A stretch of DNA of 64,000 bases, from positions 6,735,127 to 6,799,126 of the forward strand of contig OX422185.1 in the NCBI GenBank assembly GCA_949130485.1, read 5' to 3'. Source of the DNA: Agelas oroides. Lineage: Eukaryota; Porifera; Demospongiae; Agelasida; Agelasidae. The notes under the pieces were generated by a model that saw only the letters and a list, made by a program, of their open reading frames with translations, had not been told where the DNA came from and did not search any database. Positions 7,839 to 64,000 of the stretch are shown here, one piece after another. Position 1 is the first letter of the stretch; each line of letters starts with the position of its first letter. Position numbers and translations under genes: made by a program.

Positions 7839-10516
7839 CACAAACACACACGAACACACACTCATACACACACACACACACACACACAGTTCTATGTATG
7901 GTCTACTCAGTGTGGTATGTACGCACCACCATGACTCTGTCAAAGGTCTTCCCAAAGTAGCCATCCTGGAGGGCACTCTTGCCTTTTGCGCCACCTGGTA
8001 GCATCTGCTTGCCCTTACCAGCTGTACCAAAAGGCTCTGTGTGTGTGTACATGTGTGTGTGGTATTACATGGGTAACTATAGAAAACAATATGTAATGAA
8101 CAAGGAACAAGAACGCATAAGAACAGGTGGCTTGAGTAAGAGTGTGTAACTCTAATAGAAGCCCATACATTACGTCTACACAGCATGCGCATACAACAAA
8201 ATTTTCCAGATCTACCAATCGAAATTATTGAACCATACCCAAAAAATAGAACACCCAGTCACATGCTTAGCAACAATGGCTTACATCTACCCAACATGCG
8301 CATACATGTTACTATTTTTAGTACTGGTGGTAAAATACGCCTGGTTTCGAATTTTATGGAATTACACGCTCATCTAGCCACCCATTGTTATGTGCTCTTG
8401 CTAGAATATTGTTTCAATGGATAGCATGCACAGTGATATGTTTTGTGTATTTTCAGGTGTATACTGTACAGATAATACGATACTTTCAGTCAGCAACAGA
8501 CATGATGAACAGTTTGGTCAATATAAGTGTTCCCCAGGCCCACCCAGCTTCTGGTTGTTAGCAGTAGGGGCTGTGAACAGTGAGTGGGGCCATCAAAAGT
8601 GCATAAGTTTGTTTCCCAGGCCCACCCAGCTTCCGGTTGTTAGCAGTAGGGGCTGTGAACAGTGAGTGGGGCCATCAAAAGTGCATAAGTTTGTTTCCCA
8701 GGCCCACCCAGCTTCCGGTTGTTAGCAGTAGGGGCTGTGAACAATGAGTGGGGCCATCAGTGGGAAGAGTGCATAAGTTTGTTTCCCAGGCCCACCCAGC
8801 TTCCGGTTGTTAGCAGTAGGGGCTGTGAACAATGAGTGGGGCCATCAAAAGTGTATAAGTTTGTTTCCCAGGCCCACCCAGCTTCCGGTTGTTAGCAGTA
8901 GGGGCTGTGAACAATGAGTGGGGCCATCAAAAGTGTATAAGTTTGTTTCCCAGGCCCACCCAGCTTCCGGTTGTTAGCAGTAGGGGCTGTGAACAATGAG
9001 TGGGGCCATCAAAAGTGTATAAGTTTGTTTCCCAGGCCCACCCAGCTTCCGGTTGTTAGCAGTAGGGGCTGTGAACAATGATTGGGGCCATCAAAAGTGT
9101 ATAAGTTTGTTTCCCAGGCCCACCAGCTTCTAGTATCCGGTAGTAAGTGATGGGGGGCTAGGTGCAGCCTGGAAATTAAATAAGCCCAGACTTTACAGGT
9201 TATGTGTTCATGGAACAAATGATGGCCCAGCTGGTATCCAGAGATGACATCAATCAGATAGATTCTACATGTACGTATGCAGTGGCATAGCTACACCTGG
9301 GCACACCCGGGCCTGTGCCGACATAAAAATAATGTAGAAAGCTAGAGCATCCAGTTTCCATGGTACTATGTCATATTGGAGGTCAAGTGTTGAGTTCATG
9401 TGGAGGTCTAGTCTCGCAAGCCAGACCCAACCAACCCCAGCGCGGATCGCTTTCAGTATCACGCATGGGGAAGGAAGGGTCTGGTGACTTTCGGTAGGTT
9501 TCCGTGTGCTACGTTGTGATTGCCACGTAGACAATCTGATTGGCTACAGTCACATAACTTTGAACTAATCTTGATGTGTGAAACCGCTGAATCGGAAGAG
9601 CGTAATGGCGAAGTTCATGACCCACACTAGTGCTCATAGCACCTGCTTAATTAATGGCTATATCGAATATTAACCTCGTGATTTTCTGTGCATTCCACAT
9701 GCACACGGAAACCTACCGAGAGTCACTAGACCCTTCCTTCCCCGTGCGTGATACAGAAAGCGATCCGTGCTGGGGTTGGTTGGGTCTGGCTTGCGAGACT
9801 AGGGAGGTCAATACTGGTCTGTTGGCATAGTAGCCTCGAACCCAGGCTTTCCATTCCAGATTTTGTCTTGCAGCTTTGGAGATTTTTCTCCAAAGCTGCG
9901 AGACAAAATCTAGAATGGAAAGCCTGGGTTCGAGGCTAGTAACATGCACACATTCTACAGCAATTCAGGCCAGACAGGGACTGTATTTAACTTCTTATCC
10001 CCCACCTGCACCCTTTTTTGGGGACCCACTTCGCTTGCCATTATCGTGTACTCGTTTGTCGATACTGCTGATTTATGTGCTGATTTGAAACTACTCAGCG
10101 TACTGCAAAACAGCTGAAGATGTCTCCTTCCCTAAAACATACATGCTTTACCCCTAAATGTCCATTTCGTGCTTATTTCACAGCAGGCATGCCCCCTCTC
10201 GAGATTAGGAGTCTAACATTTTTTGCATTCAACGAATGATAGTAATGACCACCTGCCCACATGAACTAGTCCCTGATGACAAACTAATATGCAACAATTA
10301 GTGGTCTAGGTATACTCAGGGGCATTTGCTAAACTTCGATTGTGCGACTTTCCTTGATCTCCAATATGACATGAAGAAAGAACAAGAGCCTGGGTATGAC
10401 ACTAACAGGTTCTGCATGCACTCACTGCTGTTGGGTGGGACATAAGGGTCCCCGATACAGGTGTACCCCATCTCACTGAAGAGGCCAATACGGTCAAGGT
10501 CTGTCTTTGCTGCCAT
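2358..10516 (-). CDS. CFAP96: Cilia- and flagella-associated protein 96 (C4orf47 family), 8 coding exons
   Basis: Coding exons in transcript order are 10516-10426, 8036-7927, 7448-7342, 6417-6280, 4688-4613, 4198-4096, 3696-3632 and 2534-2358. Every junction is GT-AG and all phases join, giving 288 residues plus TGA. Family landmarks recognised in order: KTDLDRIGLFSEMGY at residue 4, GKGKQMLPGGAKGKSALQDG, AKKNIGKAWVPSSGSKKP, GLGNHYGTLGGPV, EKYKAPGKNFTTNPGK then GTGYG, YVGVTIGPSY, KGGPFKLNTHPKDLFDENPY, FKPFKPSSPAK, and CKAGTFDPYPKHSEETY near the end. Vertebrate C4orf47/CFAP96 has the same blocks in the same order and is about 309 residues. It is a ciliary/centrosomal protein of poorly known mechanism. 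The last codons read ATGAGgtgagg, so the frame could instead splice at AG|GTGAGG into an unseen exon encoding the roughly 20 residues missing from the C terminus. The gene is divergent to WAPL and has an X-box-like site upstream. Confidence 0.9.
3087..3339. repeat. AAGAGYGCATAAGAAC MITE, copy 1 (CFAP96 downstream intron)
   Basis: About 253 bp with long terminal inverted repeats: the left end reads aagagtgcataagaacagg and the right end is its approximate complement, ending gcgctctt. The inner arms (gtaagagcgtgtaactcc against ttacacgctcttac) also pair. It carries no open frame and is a non-autonomous foldback element. Other copies are at 5040, 5700, 5958, 8109, 19146 and 39450. Confidence 0.8.
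3721..3965. repeat. (GGGA)n polypurine tract
   Basis: A long gggaggga/ggaaggagg tract. On the minus strand it is a polypyrimidine tract that runs almost up to the acceptor of the CFAP96 exon at 3696, so it probably serves as, or grew out of, the pyrimidine tract of that splice site. The open frames here on both strands are low-complexity artefacts. Confidence 0.9.
5040..5298. repeat. AAGAGYGCATAAGAAC MITE, copy 2
   Basis: Same family and size (about 259 bp) as the 3087 copy, with both inverted ends intact. It lies in the CFAP96 intron between the exons ending at 6280 and starting at 4688. Confidence 0.8.
5700..6184. repeat. AAGAGYGCATAAGAAC MITE, copies 3 and 4 back to back
   Basis: Two adjoining copies. 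The first runs from 5700 and is cut at its right end (cttatgcaag at about 5957). The second starts at about 5958 with a diverged left end (aaggtgcatagaa) and ends tgtgctctt at 6184. The second is more diverged and internally shortened. They lie just downstream, in the transcript sense, of the CFAP96 exon at 6280-6417. Confidence 0.75.
7641..7889. repeat. Short dispersed element with internal (CA)n, copy 1
   Basis: The unit begins with a 'ctgtcaatgaatat' phrase, then cacaagtgttaggaacaagc, ctgggtatataagag, and a small hairpin ttggaagacccagt...ctgggtctacac, followed directly by a (CA)n tract at 7808-7889. The same order occurs at 16640 and 17985. The microsatellite is therefore part of the element or was seeded by it. 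Confidence 0.7.
8109..8399. repeat. AAGAGYGCATAAGAAC MITE, copy 5
   Basis: It has both family ends (aagaacgcataagaac on the left, tgtgctctt on the right). It is more diverged and carries an extra internal stretch around 8190-8220. It sits in the first CFAP96 intron, upstream of the exon at 8036. Confidence 0.7.
8531..9125. repeat. 82-bp minisatellite, about 7.5 copies
   Basis: The phrase ggcccacccagcttc recurs at 8537, 8619, 8701, 8789, 8871, 8953, 9035 and (as cccaccagcttc) 9117, giving a period of 82 bp with one 88-bp unit (extra tgggaag). Units differ by a few substitutions and drift from left to right, as expected for slippage or unequal exchange. It lies in the first intron of CFAP96. 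The unit begins like the dispersed cccaggcccacc repeats seen elsewhere. Confidence 0.9.
9409..9801. repeat. TAGTCTCGCAAG-ended TIR element (393 bp), intact
   Basis: The left end is tagtctcgcaagccagac and the right end is its complement, ending cttgcgagacta. The inverted ends are over 90 bp long, with indels. Flanks tggaggtc (9401-9408) and gggaggtc (9802-9809) look like a target duplication with one change. It has no transposase, so it is non-autonomous. The same family, almost the same length (396 bp), interrupts the Ig gene at 59140. Confidence 0.85.
9837..9939. repeat. Perfect-hairpin element, twin of 51163-51270
   Basis: A foldback with arms tagcctcgaacccaggcttt and complement. The core is cagctttggag / ctccaaagctg around atttttctcc. 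An almost identical hairpin lies 41 kb away at about 51163-51270. Both have 'ccattc(c/t)(a/g)gattttgtcttgc' arms, so they are two insertions of one short family. Confidence 0.8.
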
Positions 10517-56900: not shown

Positions 56901-57443
56901 GCAAGCGACGGTTTGCGTGTGGCTACTGGCACTACTGTAAGTATCTGTGCTATATATGTGTTCGAGCGCAATTTGGGATTAATGAATGGCTATTTAATAA
57001 TTGCACACATGAATGAGGCGAAGCCGAGTGCAATTATGCCATTCACGAGTGCTGTTAATCCCAAATTGTACGAGAAAACGAAAACATGATATCATAAACC
57101 TTGTCAAGTTGATAGTACACTGCAATAAGTATGAGTACATGTATGTATGAGATAGGCAAGTTATGCATGTTTACAGTACACTGTATAGTTAACAGCCAAT
57201 TGTTGTTACAAGTTACAAGTTTACAGTACATTAGATTACAGCAAATTACAAGTCACTGACCAATCAGTGTATTACACTTTTGCAGTGTTGACAGTCAGTC
57301 TAACCAGAGAGCTATTACACTTTTTTCACTGTTGCTCAACCAATCAGAGAGCTATTTTTCACTGTTGCTCAGCCTGTCAGAGAGCTATTACACTTTTTTC
57401 ACTGTTGCTCAGCCTGTCAGTGAGCTATTACACTTTTTCACTG
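53972..57443. other. Region without confident genes
   Basis: Short frames only. A + frame at 55440-55622 is Ser/Arg- then Glu-rich (SSSRSSSRSRSSSGSEEEEE...) and may be a stray exon. Frames at 56416-57089 overlap repeat DNA. The region includes the TIR element 56294-56365 and an inverted repeat at 56962-57066 (aatttgggattaat ... attaatcccaaatt). A quartet of ~48-bp repeats (ctattacactttttcactgt, tgctcagcctgtcagagag) at 57267-57445 leads into the tRNA-bearing structure. Confidence 0.4.
56294..56365. repeat. TAGTCTCGTCCCCAG TIR element (72 bp)
   Basis: Ends tagtctcgtccccag and ctgaggacgaggcta. Inner arms ggccccttcctcag and gtgaggaaggggcc form a strong hairpin. Flanks ttgtaatat and ctataatat agree at 7 of 9 positions, as for an old 9-bp target duplication. 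Confidence 0.75.
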
Positions 57444-57840
57444 TTCCTCTATTTTCGCCTCATAACATCTAAAATTCCTTTATTTCCAGCGTGAGGCAAG
57501 ATGCTCTGAGCATTTAGAGTGAGAAAACCACTCAGCATGGGTTCTTTCCTGATGGAGAGAATTTTCCGGTCGACCCCTAACGGAGTTCTGACGGCACATA
57601 CTGAGTGGCTGCCGGGTGTGCGACTGAGGCATTCAGTACCACCTGTGCAGTATATATAGAGGATTGTGAGGGCTGGTGGTTGTCCGGTTGCCGTAGCTCA
57701 GTGGCAGAGCACTGGCGGCTCAAGCCAGGTGTCCTGGGTTCGACTCCCGGTGGCTGCCGGCCTTTTCCACTTTCCTCTATTTTCGCCTCATAACATCTAA
57801 AATTCCTTTATTTCCAGCGTGAGGCAAGATGCTCTGAGCA
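57444..57840 (+). repeat. 69-bp direct repeats enclosing a tRNA-like gene
   Basis: The 69 bases starting ttcctctattttcgcctcat and ending gcaagatgctctgagca occur at 57444-57512 and again, without visible change, at 57772-57840. The 259 bp between them hold the tRNA-like sequence at the right end. Identical direct repeats suggest a very recent tandem duplication, or a small terminal-repeat retroelement. Confidence 0.85.
57687..57758 (+). tRNA. tRNA or tRNA-like gene, anticodon loop reading CTC
   Basis: The 72 bases fold as a cloverleaf: acceptor gttgccg/tggctgc (one mismatch and two wobble pairs), D stem gctc/gagc, anticodon stem ctggc/gccag with loop ggctcaa, T stem ctggg/cccgg with loop ttcgact. 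The internal Pol III boxes are ideal (tagctcagtggc and ggttcgactcc) and a TTTT terminator follows at 57763-57766. Loop position 33 is G instead of the nearly universal T. The gene may therefore be a decayed tRNA or the head of a tRNA-derived SINE rather than a working glutamate (CTC) tRNA. Confidence 0.5.
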
Positions 57841-57859: not shown

Positions 57860-58207
57860 GGACAATCAAACATAGGAATGTGCAACTTGGTAATATTTTA
57901 ATATCATAGCCAGGTGTAGTACATGTAGTACAAGTAGCTGGTCAGAAATTTTTGCAAATATGACTTATTCTGTTGTGTAAATCCTACATATAGCACAATA
58001 CTTGTATGATAAACAATTCTACTATGCTATGCTGCACTGCTTCAAAAAAGTGCCTACAAACCCCCCTATTATGCTCAAACACTCTCTTGTGGTTTGCAGG
58101 TCCTTAACAATCCCACATAAGTACATTCATTCACTGCGGTGTTTGTCCCCACTTAATTGGGGGTCTCCCTGAGGAATTCCCTAAAGCATTACAGCCTGGC
58201 ATCCACC
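57860..58207. repeat. Left arm of an inverted repeat pair around the Ig gene
   Basis: From ggacaatcaaacataggaat through catagccaggtgtagtacat, cctacatatagcacaatact and gaggaattccctaaa to cctggcatccacc. It returns in reverse complement at 62461-62742 with moderate divergence and a few length differences. Confidence 0.8.
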
Positions 58208-58606
58208 ATTCTAGCTTCTGAAGACAGAAGTGTGCAAATGTTTCTGCGTCTACAACCTGTGACTGTTAAAAAACTGGAGGTTGATTTAACTCAAAACATG
58301 TCATCTCTTATGATCATGAAGGAGGTAAAAATGGTAATATGCCATGAATTACAATTACACTGAGAAAACACATTCAGTCAGTCTCAAGCATGCAAGCTAG
58401 GCCAAGAAAACAACCGTCTGGTGTAATGCAAGAAAAAGGGGTGACATTCGTAAACAGCTAGAGATTATGGGCTATGGGGTTTTTAGGAACACACTTAGAA
58501 GTCAGTTGTAAAACAACTGGGCCTGCAAGAGCATGCCACAACTTAGGATTTATAATCCTTGTACTGCTGCAAATTGCAAAACTGACTTATTCCCTTTACA
58601 GGCACA

Positions 58607-61600
58607 ATGGCGTTCAAGCAGCGATTGCTCCTCTACACCTATGTGTTAGTACTAGTGACAGTGATGCCCTTCGCCACTGCACAGTCTCTTCAATTGGTCT
58701 ACACAGGACGACCTGGAAACCCTAACCCGAACCCAGGAGCTAATCGGATTTCCCTTGAGTGCCAACTTAATAGTATTGCTGTATCCAATCCTCAGATCTT
58801 TGTTGAGCGGTCAGACCTAGGCAAGCAGTCAGTCACAATTGTAAGTGGAGAGACTACCGTGGTAATTGAGATAACCCAGGACCTAGAAGGGTTGTACTCT
58901 TGCAGCCACAACGGTGTTGGGTCCAGCAATACGCTGAGACTTGTAGGTGAGGAGAACTGCTATCACATGCATGATTATCAGTGAGATGTTGTGATGATGA
59001 CTTCTTCACTTCTCTTTTCTTTCTGTAGCTTATCCTCGAGCGAATCTCAGTATTCCTTCAATCTATGCCTTCCAAGCAGGACTATCAGCCACCATTCAGT
59101 GTCGGGTAATGCCAGGAAGGCTCAGCCAATACTACAGTGTAGTCTCGCAAGCCCGACCCACTTCCGCTAGAGAAGGGAGAGGGTCTGGTGAACAGCGTAT
59201 ACAAGCCGTGTCCCGCCGCACTGTACAGTGCGGTACAATCAGATTGCAGTATTTTGTCACACGATGCATTACGTCACTGTTTGAGTAGCAATAGCAGTCT
59301 TCAAAACGGCGAACATGAGCTAGGGCATCTTTTCCGCTGCTGCAGAAGCTGTAAAAACACTTCGACTATACTTCTCAGGGAGCGTGCTTACTCCGCAACA
59401 GGTAATTCAAGAGTGCATTATTTGAAATCTGGTTACGTCATCCAGCTAATTGCATTCCGTTGGGACACGGCTTGTATACGCAGTTCACCAGACCCTTCCC
59501 TTCTTTTGCGGAAGTGGGTCGGGCCTGCGAGACTAACTACAGTGTTAGGTGGATGAAAAATGGTGCACCTATTGCCACATCAAATCCTCGTATTGTGGTG
59601 CAAGGATACCAACTCCATGACACCTTTTCCCTCACCATCAATAACATACAACTGAGTGATTCCAGTACAAGTTATCAATGCATTGTAACTCTCAATGACC
59701 CTGAAACAACTCGCAATGATGACATAGTTTACAACCAGAACTTGGGCCTTGGCAATATCACAGTGAGAGTGTATGGTAAGTCACTTGGTATATGCACAGA
59801 CACGTGTATTTTCAAATATTAGTGGTATGCTTATGTTTACCAAGTGCCGTAATTAACTTTATTATCCAGTTGATATTTCTACAACAGTATTTTCCTATTC
59901 CCGTGCCGTGCAATATCACACGATATTGCACGGGTAGTTATTGCACGGGTAGTTATTGCACGGGCCCTGGGGCTATATACGCGTGATATCCTAGCAACCA
60001 GCGTGCGCTTTAATTAGAACCAGTGCGTTCGAACGGCGAGCTACTCGGGACTTTGCAAGAAGAGACACGACGCTGTTGTGGTAATGGATAATAAATACTT
60101 TATTACACTCGTTAGCGTGCATATCGCGGTTATTGCACTCGTGGGCTGCATTTTCACTCGCCTTCGGCTCGTGAAAATACCACGCCCACTCGTGCAATAA
60201 TTCGCGATGTTGCACGCTAACTCGTGTAATAAGGTATATATATTGATCCATGTTTTATTTAGCATGCCATTTTCATACATTGTGTACAGTTCCTCCGACT
60301 ATTGTAATTGCTCCGGAGCCAAGGGTGGTTGCAATGGTGGGAAGGGGTCAACCAAGCACCACGTTCATCTGTGAGGCAACCAGAATTCCTGCATGTACAA
60401 CACAGATCTTATGGATACACAAGGGGCGGAACACAAGCAAAATGAGAGATCGGAGATTTCAGGCAGACACCATTGATTCCAGTGGGAGGATCATTAGAAG
60501 CAGACTGAATGCCACACGGCTCAGGGGGAGAGACAGTGGGAGGATTGACTGTGTTGCTTACTGCATGGTTGATGTTCCTGGTGATAGGCGACCAATGGTG
60601 TTAGCTCTTAGTACCTCCAGAAACACCACCCTCTCAGTTCTGAGTAAGTGTGTTGGAAGTTGGTTTGTGAAGCCACATAATAATATTGGTCAGCTCCTGA
60701 TGCCACAGGTATGCATAACTATATAGAAATGACAATTAACTGTTGATCTTTTGCAGCTCGAGACTACGAGGCAGTTGTTTCAGTTACAACCAACGGTGAC
60801 TTGTTCTTCAGGATTAACTTTGATGATGGCTACCGAATTCTGGAGCAAACAAGGCTGCTAATGAATTATACAGATAAAATGAGCCTACAGTCTACAAAGA
60901 TGATGTCTGAACGAGCATTTGTGAATAGAAGCAGCATAGTGTTGGAGGTGGCCCGTTCCAGGGTGCCTTATTCGCATTTCCAAGTTCATGTTGCACTGCA
61001 AGTGGGCGATGAAGTTGGACCATTTGTTTCAGATGGAAAAACCCATGGTAAGCATGTACACTCATGCTATTGTCTAAGTATGTTACAAATTGTTGACTTT
61101 GACTGTTACAATCATAACTTTTCCTTTTAATTGCAGAAATAAAGGACAATACAAAAACATACATCATTGCTGGATCAGTTGCGGGTTGTGTGGTTCTGAT
61201 AGTCCTGTCGATACTTGTGATAAGTACGATGGTGTTGTGTTACTGCTACTGCAAGGGAAAAAGTCGACAGAAGGAAAGTGAGAAACAGAAAAATATTGCA
61301 TTAGCAAAATTGGAAAATGAAAAGGCTAAAACAAGGGTGAGAGCATTGGAAGAATTAGGGAAAATTGGGGGGCCAGAATTGTTCAATATGGAGCCTGAAC
61401 AAATGGAACAGCATCTGAAACCAATCAGTGATTTCATTAGTCGTATTACAGGTGACTTTGATGAACCAGCTGACATTCCTTGTGAAGCTAACCAACCAGC
61501 CAAAACCAACCGTGTAGTTTCAGATGGAGATGAAAAGAGTAAAGAAGATAGAAAGACAAAGCGACAGATTGTGGATAATTTTCTCAAGAATGTGCACACA

Positions 61601-61645
61601 CAAGTCCAGACACACACAGATAATAAGCTTCATACTCCATCCTAG
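58607..61645 (+). CDS. Three-Ig-domain type I membrane protein; exon 2 carries an inserted element
   Basis: Exons 58607-58946, 59029-59775, 60290-60643, 60757-61047 and 61137-61645, all introns in phase 1. Signal peptide 1 to about 26 (MAFKQRLLLYTYVLVLVTVM..). Ig1 lies in exon 1 (SLECQL ... GLYSCSHNG). Ig2 lies in exon 2 (ATIQCRV, VRWMKNG, SYQCIV). Ig3 lies in exon 3 (TFICEA, ILWIHKG, GRIDCVAYC). Exon 4 encodes a beta-rich juxtamembrane region. Exon 5 gives a membrane span (TYIIAGSVAGCVVLIVLSIL...), a CYCYCKGK border and a Lys/Glu-rich tail of about 130 residues with no tyrosine, so no ITIM or ITAM. One-domain-per-exon, phase 1-1 structure is usual for exon-shuffled Ig receptors. A 396-bp TIR element plus a 9-bp duplication (405 bp) splits the Ig2 exon. 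The insert keeps the frame length but brings an in-frame TAG at 59286. Without it the protein would be 611 residues. The gene is otherwise intact; ligand and function are unknown. Confidence 0.85.
59140..59535. mobile_element. TAGTCTCGCA TIR element inserted in the Ig2 exon
   Basis: Left end tagtctcgcaagcccgaccc, right end gggtcgggcctgcgagacta. The inverted repeats run about 75 bp, up to gcgtatacaagccgtg. The nine bases actacagtg occur at 59131-59139 and 59536-59544. It has no transposase. Same family and size as 9409-9801. Removing the element and one 9-bp copy joins CAATACTACAGTG to TTAGGTGG and restores the Ig strand with its core tryptophan. Confidence 0.93.
59880..60231. repeat. Repeat island in Ig intron with 130-bp hairpin
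   Basis: A triplet of attgcacgggtagtt units at about 59925-59965 is followed by a near-palindrome at 60101-60231. Its arms are tattacactcgttagcgtgc and gcacgctaactcgtgtaata, closing on cactcgccttcggctcgtg. The transcript would form a very stable stem in the intron before the Ig3 exon. Confidence 0.8.
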
Positions 61646-64000
61646 TTTTATTTATTCTCTTTAGCACTGCGTGTACGCATTAGACATTAGATGTTATAGC
61701 TAGCCCCCACTCTAGATAGAAATTGTAACTGTAGTAGGTACTAGCTACGTATTAGTATTCTTTTTAAGAAGAGGTTGTTACATTTTCACTTGATTGGAGT
61801 CCATACATACAGATATCATGACACTAGCAGGAATAACACTAGCCCAATAAGTTATATACACATCCTCGACTAATCACTTAAGCTCAAATTCATTTGTGGT
61901 TCCTTGGGCCATTTCCTTAGTATGTAAACCCACCTCCTCCCACTTTCTTGGTAGCTACAGAGTCTATCAGCCAAGGACATTGCTGAACTTGACATTCCTG
62001 AAGTAACTGGTTTTAAAATACGTGATTTTCAGGTCTTATAACATTGTATGGACAACCACACCTCAGTTTGTTGTGTATGCTTGAAAATGACCTTCACTAA
62101 ACTATGTTCTTATAGAATGATTTTCCTGACTATGTGGTTTTAGGAAGCATTGTTATACTGCCTATAACAGCAAAACTTCCCAGATCAGTCTAATTAATAT
62201 AGGCTGATGTATAGGTTTCAACTTGATCTTACTATATACATGTAAAACGACAGAATGTTCACTCAACACAGGGTCCCAGCACATCCCTAACTTCCTGTAA
62301 GTAACATCCTGCATGAGATTGTTTTTGGGTGTAAAGTGGCACCAACTGTCTCAGGTAGATAAATCTCTGTCAGCTTTCACAGTGAGTCAGTCACACAGCT
62401 ATTGCAGGTACATAATATAATTCATGGCATATCACCATTATTACCTTCTTTGGGATCATAGGTGGATGCCAGTTTGGGGAATTCCCCAGGGAGAACCCCT
62501 GGCAACAAACATAGTAGTGAAGCAAGTTATCAGGGATTGTTAACCTGTGAACAACAGTCCCATCTATTCATCAGGACCTTGATATAATACAACTTGTTTA
62601 TCATACAAGTATTGTGCTATATGTAGGATTTACACCACAGAATAAGTCATATGTGCAAAGAATTTCTGACCAGCTACATGTACTACACCTGGCTATGATA
62701 TTAAAGTATTGCCAAGTTACACATTCCTATGTTTGATTGTCCAGAGAATTCATGGACCGGGCACCAACAGTGAGTAATTTTACATGATCTAGCAAACAAG
62801 TTGTTAGCCATTGTCCCTGTCTTTCCTAAACCCTCCCCATGTCTCAATAAATAGGGAAGAAAATCTGTTACCATGGTGATAGGAGTGTATATTGTATATA
62901 CAGTAGAAGTACTAATCTTACGAAAGCACTAGCTACGTAATAAATATGTAATAAATATCAGTTGAATGTACCTACAGCCCACAAGACCGACCTAAGCATC
63001 CCTCTTTGGTAGAAGGGTCTTAGTGGGAGAGAAGTACTGACAAAAGCACTAGGACATGTCGATTCCCCTCCTACTGCCATCATGATGATGTAATGACATA
63101 TGCGGCTTTCACACTGCACCTTTAATATGTGCCGATCAATGGTGTATCCCACATTGCATACCTGGGGCAGATGTTAGAGAAAGGAGGGAGATTTGCCGTC
63201 AGAATCTTCTCCGAGGGGTTGGTACTTAGTTGAGATTGTCCCAATCCACTCAAATGGCATACACATCCTCTTTCGTTGTGTGAAATGTCTTTGGAAAATT
63301 CTTTGTGACTTCCACAATCCCCATGTCTTCCTGTCACACACCGTGCATGACAGGAAGACATCAAGCCTCAGGTATTGTAGGTATAGGCATACCACTGATA
63401 GCCGCATTACGTGACCCATGGCGAAATGATGGAAACAATGACGCTGACAGAAGTGTTGAGCTGTGAAATGGGACAGTTGTGCAAAGTAGCTCAAGTATTT
63501 GCTAGAGAAGGTAAGCCTATAGTTTGGGGAGTAGGAGGAAAGTAGAAAGAATAAATCAACACTATCATAGCATGGATCAAAGAACTGGAGTGTGTGCACA
63601 TATAATTCCATCATCCATCCAGCACATGTAAACTATTAATTCACACACAGTAATGATATCAATGTCTGATCTCCACAGAGCTGGTTTGTGTAGCTGTATC
63701 CACTGAAGAATGACCATAAACAGGCATTTTGTGGGTTCATATTGTAATGCATGGAATAATACTGTTGTAAAAAATAGTAGTGTGCTGTATGCACTGTGGC
63801 TGTAATGTGAGAGAAATAAACATGGATCTCTGACAAGCTGCCAAAAGTGAAGTACACAGCGCATGGAGCTAGATTGCAGACTGTGATGCAATGCCCTTGC
63901 ATACTAGATGATCTCATTGAATGTGTGGATGGGCCTCTCCCTTCTTCTCCCTTCTTCCCTCCTTTCCTCCCCCTTCTTCCCTCCTTTCCTCTCCCTTCTT
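61646..64000. other. 3' flank without recognised gene
   Basis: This includes the Ig 3' UTR, the right inverted-repeat arm (62461-62742) and anonymous sequence. A short hairpin cttcctgtcacacaccgtgcatgacaggaag sits at about 63329-63360. The window ends in a polypyrimidine tract (from 63934; cccttcttccctcctttcct), which in this genome often marks the 3' end of an intron on the + strand. Confidence 0.4.
62461..62742. repeat. Right arm of an inverted repeat pair around the Ig gene
   Basis: Reads ggtggatgccagtttgggga ... gtttgattgtcc, the reverse complement of the arm at 57860-58207, with about 10-15% visible differences and a shorter middle. Confidence 0.8.

Follow-up and report, generated by a model that had tools for sequence, protein, structure and literature searches.

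Background

Does a receptor gene of the sponge Agelas oroides carry a transposable element in one of its coding exons, or is the inserted DNA an intron that is removed from the transcript, and what could the inserted allele still produce? MITEs inserted in coding exons are a general phenomenon, and our literature search for sponge-related reports of a MITE in an exon returned none that was relevant by its title or the start of its abstract.

In the present study, we analysed a window of 64,000 nucleotides (the whole stretch of DNA under study, contig OX422185.1, positions 6,735,127 to 6,799,126 of the forward strand), for which a preliminary description had proposed that an element splits an exon of an immunoglobulin (Ig) receptor. 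Positions given below are those of the window, unless a region fetched from elsewhere in the genome (L followed by a number) is named.

Results and discussion

Structure of the receptor gene

The receptor gene was modelled with five exons, as follows.

58607..58946, + strand: exon 1, counted from the start codon, with a signal peptide and an Ig1-like domain (both by eye), 340 nt
59029..59775, + strand: exon 2 (Ig2, Pfam I-set) with the element inside, 747 nt with the insert and 342 nt without it, phase 1 at both ends
60290..60643, + strand: exon 3, judged Ig-like by eye and from weak hits among solved Ig chains, unmatched in Pfam
60757..61047, + strand: exon 4, membrane-proximal domain that has no name in Pfam
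61137..61645, + strand: exon 5, with a hydrophobic segment (taken by eye as transmembrane) and the cytoplasmic tail, ending with TAG

All four modelled introns are GT-AG, exons 2, 3, and 4 are in phase 1 at both the start and the end, and the frame of the empty site, that is, the gene without the insert, is open for 611 codons. The preliminary description had stated that the rest of the gene has no other defects, and we saw none. Ig2 is the only Ig stretch matched in Pfam (I-set, 1.4e-8), and over Ig1 to Ig3 the sequence weakly matches solved Ig chains, among them Roundabout, NCAM, contactin-2, and 8qpx_A. Together with the signal peptide and the transmembrane segment, both judged by eye, these domains are those of an Ig superfamily receptor.

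Several repeats lie in and around the gene. Inverted repeats bracket it (57860-58025 and 62584-62742, 89% identity over 168 aligned positions), and so does a second inverted pair (58309-58351 and 62418-62460, 86% over 43). When a 546-bp query was searched and the best 40 of 43 candidates were scored, the long inverted-repeat arm was found at the receptor locus only, and other parts of the query had short matches at 38 other places. Intron 2 contains a 151-bp imperfect palindrome (60091-60241, 77% identity to its own reverse complement). Direct repeats of 80 bp (57433-57512 and 57762-57840, 97.5%) flank a predicted tRNA-Glu gene (57686-57759).

The insertion and its target site

The features of the insertion within exon 2 are as follows.

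59131..59139, no strand: left copy of the target-site duplication, 9 bp (ACTACAGTG)
59140..59535, + strand: non-autonomous TIR element (MITE), 396 bp, probable AcademH derivative
59140..59223, + strand: left terminal inverted repeat, about 84 bp
59286..59288, + strand: in-frame TAG stop created by the insert
59453..59535, - strand: right terminal inverted repeat
59536..59544, no strand: right copy of the target-site duplication, 9 bp (ACTACAGTG)

The two copies of the duplication are perfect over the 9 bp and stand 405 bp apart; thus, the coordinates and the spacing that had been described for a TIR element within the Ig2 exon were found again. A tenth matching base, T, follows both copies; the element opens with the left T, and the right T belongs to the host. 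We took the length as 9 bp, not 10, in agreement with the other copies of the element. The element starts with TAGTCTCG and finishes with CGAGACTA, and its inverted arms pair over 39 nt (complementary at 92%) and over 44 nt (89%). As had been claimed, removing the element and one copy of the duplication gives a continuous Ig2 reading, ...QCRVMPGRLSQYYSVRWMKNG...SYQCIV..., which is stop-free.

We also considered the element as a coding insertion and rejected it, because the host reads its frame 2, which has five stops, and not frame 0, which has a single stop at the first codon. The openness of frame 0 for 131 codons after that first codon may be due to chance. Among 40 other copies of the element (described below), frame 0 is stop-free except for the first codon in 25, and further or other stops occur in 15, six of which have theirs only at codon 130.

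The empty site in paralogs

The left flank (58900-59139) was searched against the same genome, and all six candidates were scored: the locus, with the one exact match, and five others that are 72-78% identical to the flank. A second haplotype or empty allele, sought in this assembly with the same flank, was not seen. The gene therefore has at least five paralogs, a number that is a lower bound; region L059 was left out of the counts, because it repeats one place in L058. Exon 2 is continuous in all five paralogs and shares 61-69% protein identity with the empty-site exon. BLASTN alignments of the window with the five distinct paralog exons break at 59140 and resume at 59536, with an overlap of 10 bases on the paralog side in every case. 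For three of the paralogs, the fetched stretch showed recognisable matches to exons 1 and 2 only. Short matches to the 396-bp element were observed in region L057, one (1934-1962) about 135 bp upstream of the first coding match of the paralog and another (9285-9400) further downstream.

The continuity of the paralog exons across the site speaks against the two halves of exon 2 belonging to different genes, and we rejected that reading on this basis. The insertion in a coding exon had been said to be refuted if the element lay in an intron with normal splice sites or if the halves came from two genes; the five continuous exons oppose both.

Could the insertion have struck a relic, that is, a gene that was already dispensable? 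The receptor family has at least six members, and the dN/dS ratios against the paralogs are not very low (0.35 to 0.82), which would suit such a gene. dN is lower than dS in all 15 exon comparisons with the paralogs, all of them stop-free. The 611-codon frame that is open apart from the insert and the canonical modelled splice sites speak against a relic, and we regard this explanation as unlikely. The receptor gene was presumably working until the insertion.

Is the element an intron?

If the element acted as an intron, in the manner of an introner, splice sites at its edges would remove it and the receptor would be normal. Some motifs fit such a reading: the right duplication has ACTACAG, which could serve as a 3' splice site and has CTAAC shortly before it, a GT stands within the left duplication, and inside the element an acceptor-like site ends at 59345 and a donor-like site lies at 59402. 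However, neither of the GTs at the left edge reaches six of the nine consensus positions, and joining them to the AG of the right duplication would remove 406 or 404 nt instead of the 405 nt that restores the frame. Using 59346-59401 as an exon (56 nt) would shift the frame too, and none of the five paralogs has an intron at the site. Because of the frame shift and the intron-free paralogs, we rejected this reading as the leading idea, and consider it extremely improbable that the element is spliced out to leave a normal receptor. The donor-like site at 59402 agrees with the consensus at 8 of 9 positions, equal to the real donor of exon 2; thus, some mis-spliced transcripts are possible.

The repeat family in the genome

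The insertion in the coding exon belongs to a family of repeats. The genome was searched with the 396-bp element, and the best 40 of 785 first-look candidates were scored. The 39 further regions fetched contained 40 other full-length copies, which are the best-scoring ones and not a random sample. They are 394-399 bp long, and 36 of these 40 best-scoring copies have an exact 9-bp duplication, which argues that the duplication at the same ends in the window is not due to chance. In the remaining four, 8, 6, 3, and 1 of the 9 bases match. The 36 copies represent 31 distinct sites, since six of them (in L038, L044, L045, L046, L047, and L048) have their flank and duplication in common; these six may be one insertion carried inside a larger repeat. 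The preference for a target sequence is weak, at most 0.24 bits (38 sites, symmetrised).

With a 26-base tag from the end of the inverted repeat and at most one mismatch, we obtained 206 forward and 195 reverse matches in the genome; a reversed control gave 0 and 0. The element is thus short, ends in inverted repeats, is uniform in length, and is present in many copies, as MITEs are.

Age of the insertion

The copy in the window has two differences from the consensus of the 17 closest copies, one of which is private (absent from the other 40 copies), and five differences from the consensus of all 40. The closest copies, in L013 and L014, are each 99.75% identical to it over 396 bp (one difference each). 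Its near identity to the closest members of the family bears out the earlier proposal of a recent event. From the two differences, the nearest copies, and the identical duplications, we consider the insertion to be young.

A larger element with similar ends

Among the tag matches listed, about the first hundred, we looked for pairs of inverted ends at spacings other than 396 bp and fetched six of them, as well as one pair in the opposite arrangement. One pair delimits an element of 6,010 bp (L061:213-6222) with its own 9-bp duplication. One end of it shares 99% identity with the 396-bp element over the first 120 bp of the latter. The opposite end matches the left arm of the short element at 98% over 86 bp, but the right end of the short element at only 91% over 89 bp. 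The fetched pairs of 2,898, 1,001, 731, and 60 bp have exact 9-bp duplications, and the 637-bp pair matches at 8 of 9 bases. The pairs of 637 to 2,898 bp hold long stretches of the 396-bp element as well as other DNA. The 60-bp element (L067:208-267), which consists of the two inverted ends only and has a 9-bp duplication, is an extreme minimal form.

Ten reading frames of at least 100 codons in the 6,010-bp element were scanned singly for Pfam families. Two frames match DEAD (1.8e-17), Helicase_C (1.6e-14), and RecQ_Zn_bind (5.5e-8), as would a RecQ-like helicase, and three match consecutive parts of DUF6589. Of the remaining five frames, four have no match and one has two weak ones that fall below their cut-offs. 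The helicase segment was found in the genome as one full copy, with fragments at one diverged place. DUF6589 may be the Academ transposase, although a literature search for DUF6589 found no paper.

Which superfamily do these elements belong to? The founding AcademH paper reportedly places the lineage, by its title, in animals and fungi. In passages of one article, the transposons named as sources of DEAD and Helicase_C domains are AcademH, KolobokH, and Helitron (PMC10799480). According to passages of another, AcademH duplications are 9 or 10 bp and AcademX duplications are 3 or 4 bp, a difference related to the helicase and the nuclease (PMC10045372). In our material, the 9-bp duplication is found in the window copy, in the 36 other copies, and in the 6,010-bp element, and the last of these, whose ends are similar to those of the short element, encodes the helicase. 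Kolobok elements target TTAA and Helitrons are not known to make a target duplication; AcademH therefore fits best.

Membership in the Mutator-like (MULE) superfamily would also account for the long inverted repeats and the 9-bp duplications, as duplications of 4 to 10 bp are given for the IS256/MuDR group (in passages of PMC10045372). Yet the larger element with the same ends carries the helicase and DUF6589 matches, and no match to a MULE family was found in its ten frames of at least 100 codons at E-values up to 0.1. Judged from this one larger element, a MULE origin is very unlikely. We prefer AcademH: from the duplication length and the domain matches, the 396-bp element would probably derive from AcademH as a non-autonomous form, and the 6,010-bp element is its likely parent.

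Product of the inserted allele

We infer the fate of the RNA and protein of the inserted allele as follows. When exon 2 is included, translation reaches the in-frame TAG at 59286, which agrees with the stop described earlier, and ends after 199 codons; the final 49 of these codons contain bases of the element. The truncated product would carry Ig1 and the beginning of Ig2, including the first Cys, but would not have the core Trp and the second Cys of Ig2, which makes its stable secretion doubtful. Exon 2 continues for 487 nt beyond the stop. A stop in such a position is expected to trigger decay where the pathway depends on downstream junctions. Given this position and the incomplete Ig2, the secreted truncated product that the preliminary description had suggested does not seem the likeliest outcome.

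Exon 2 is in phase 1 at both ends, so that skipping it keeps the frame: when it is left out, 497 codons are open to the normal stop, as against 611 at the empty site, and the product would be a receptor of 497 amino acid residues. As judged from the exon phases, skipping would be a route from the inserted allele to a membrane receptor for which no new splice site is needed. Conceivably, most transcripts leave out exon 2, and a shorter membrane-bound receptor without Ig2 is still made. However, the splice sites of exon 2 are intact and good (13 of 14 pyrimidines at the acceptor, and a donor that fits at 8 of 9 positions); inclusion is thus expected, and predominant skipping seems rather unlikely.

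Conclusions

In our reading, a 396-bp non-autonomous DNA transposon entered the Ig2 exon recently and duplicated 9 bp of its target; it was probably moved by proteins from an AcademH-type element with shared ends. Transcripts containing exon 2 would stop at 59286 and end as degraded RNA or as a misfolded fragment, and a minority product without Ig2 could arise through the frame-keeping skipping of the exon. We consider it highly probable that this is a recent transposon insertion into an otherwise intact receptor exon, probably AcademH-mobilised, and that the allele is probably loss-of-function or weak. A more far-reaching scenario, in which a still active AcademH-derived element gives presence/absence variation, an exon-skipped membrane receptor without Ig2 is made, and two forms of the ectodomain segregate, is quite doubtful.

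The locus presents a clean gene disruption with its empty state documented in five paralogs, and draws attention to a young family of DNA transposons that is probably AcademH. If the insertion is polymorphic, it would be a natural marker for testing the role of the receptor. To the preliminary description we add that the element is probably of AcademH origin, that five paralogs show the empty state, and that exon skipping is an alternative to a secreted fragment.

The event itself is not unusual in kind: a short DNA transposon, inserted recently, lies in an exon. Like MITEs inserted in other coding exons, the 396-bp element is short, many-copy, and non-autonomous, makes a target duplication, and interrupts a gene, and there is no difference in principle from them. 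The host protein shows weak sequence likeness to Ig-domain receptors such as NCAM, Roundabout, and contactin, with an I-set Ig2; it differs from the chain 8qpx_A, which is named as a receptor tyrosine kinase fragment, in having no match to a kinase domain (E-value up to 1). Like AcademH, the family has inverted repeats, 9-bp duplications, and, in the same genome, a larger element whose ends are closely similar and which encodes a helicase, although the 396-bp and 6-kb elements share only about 120 bp on the left and 86-89 bp on the right.
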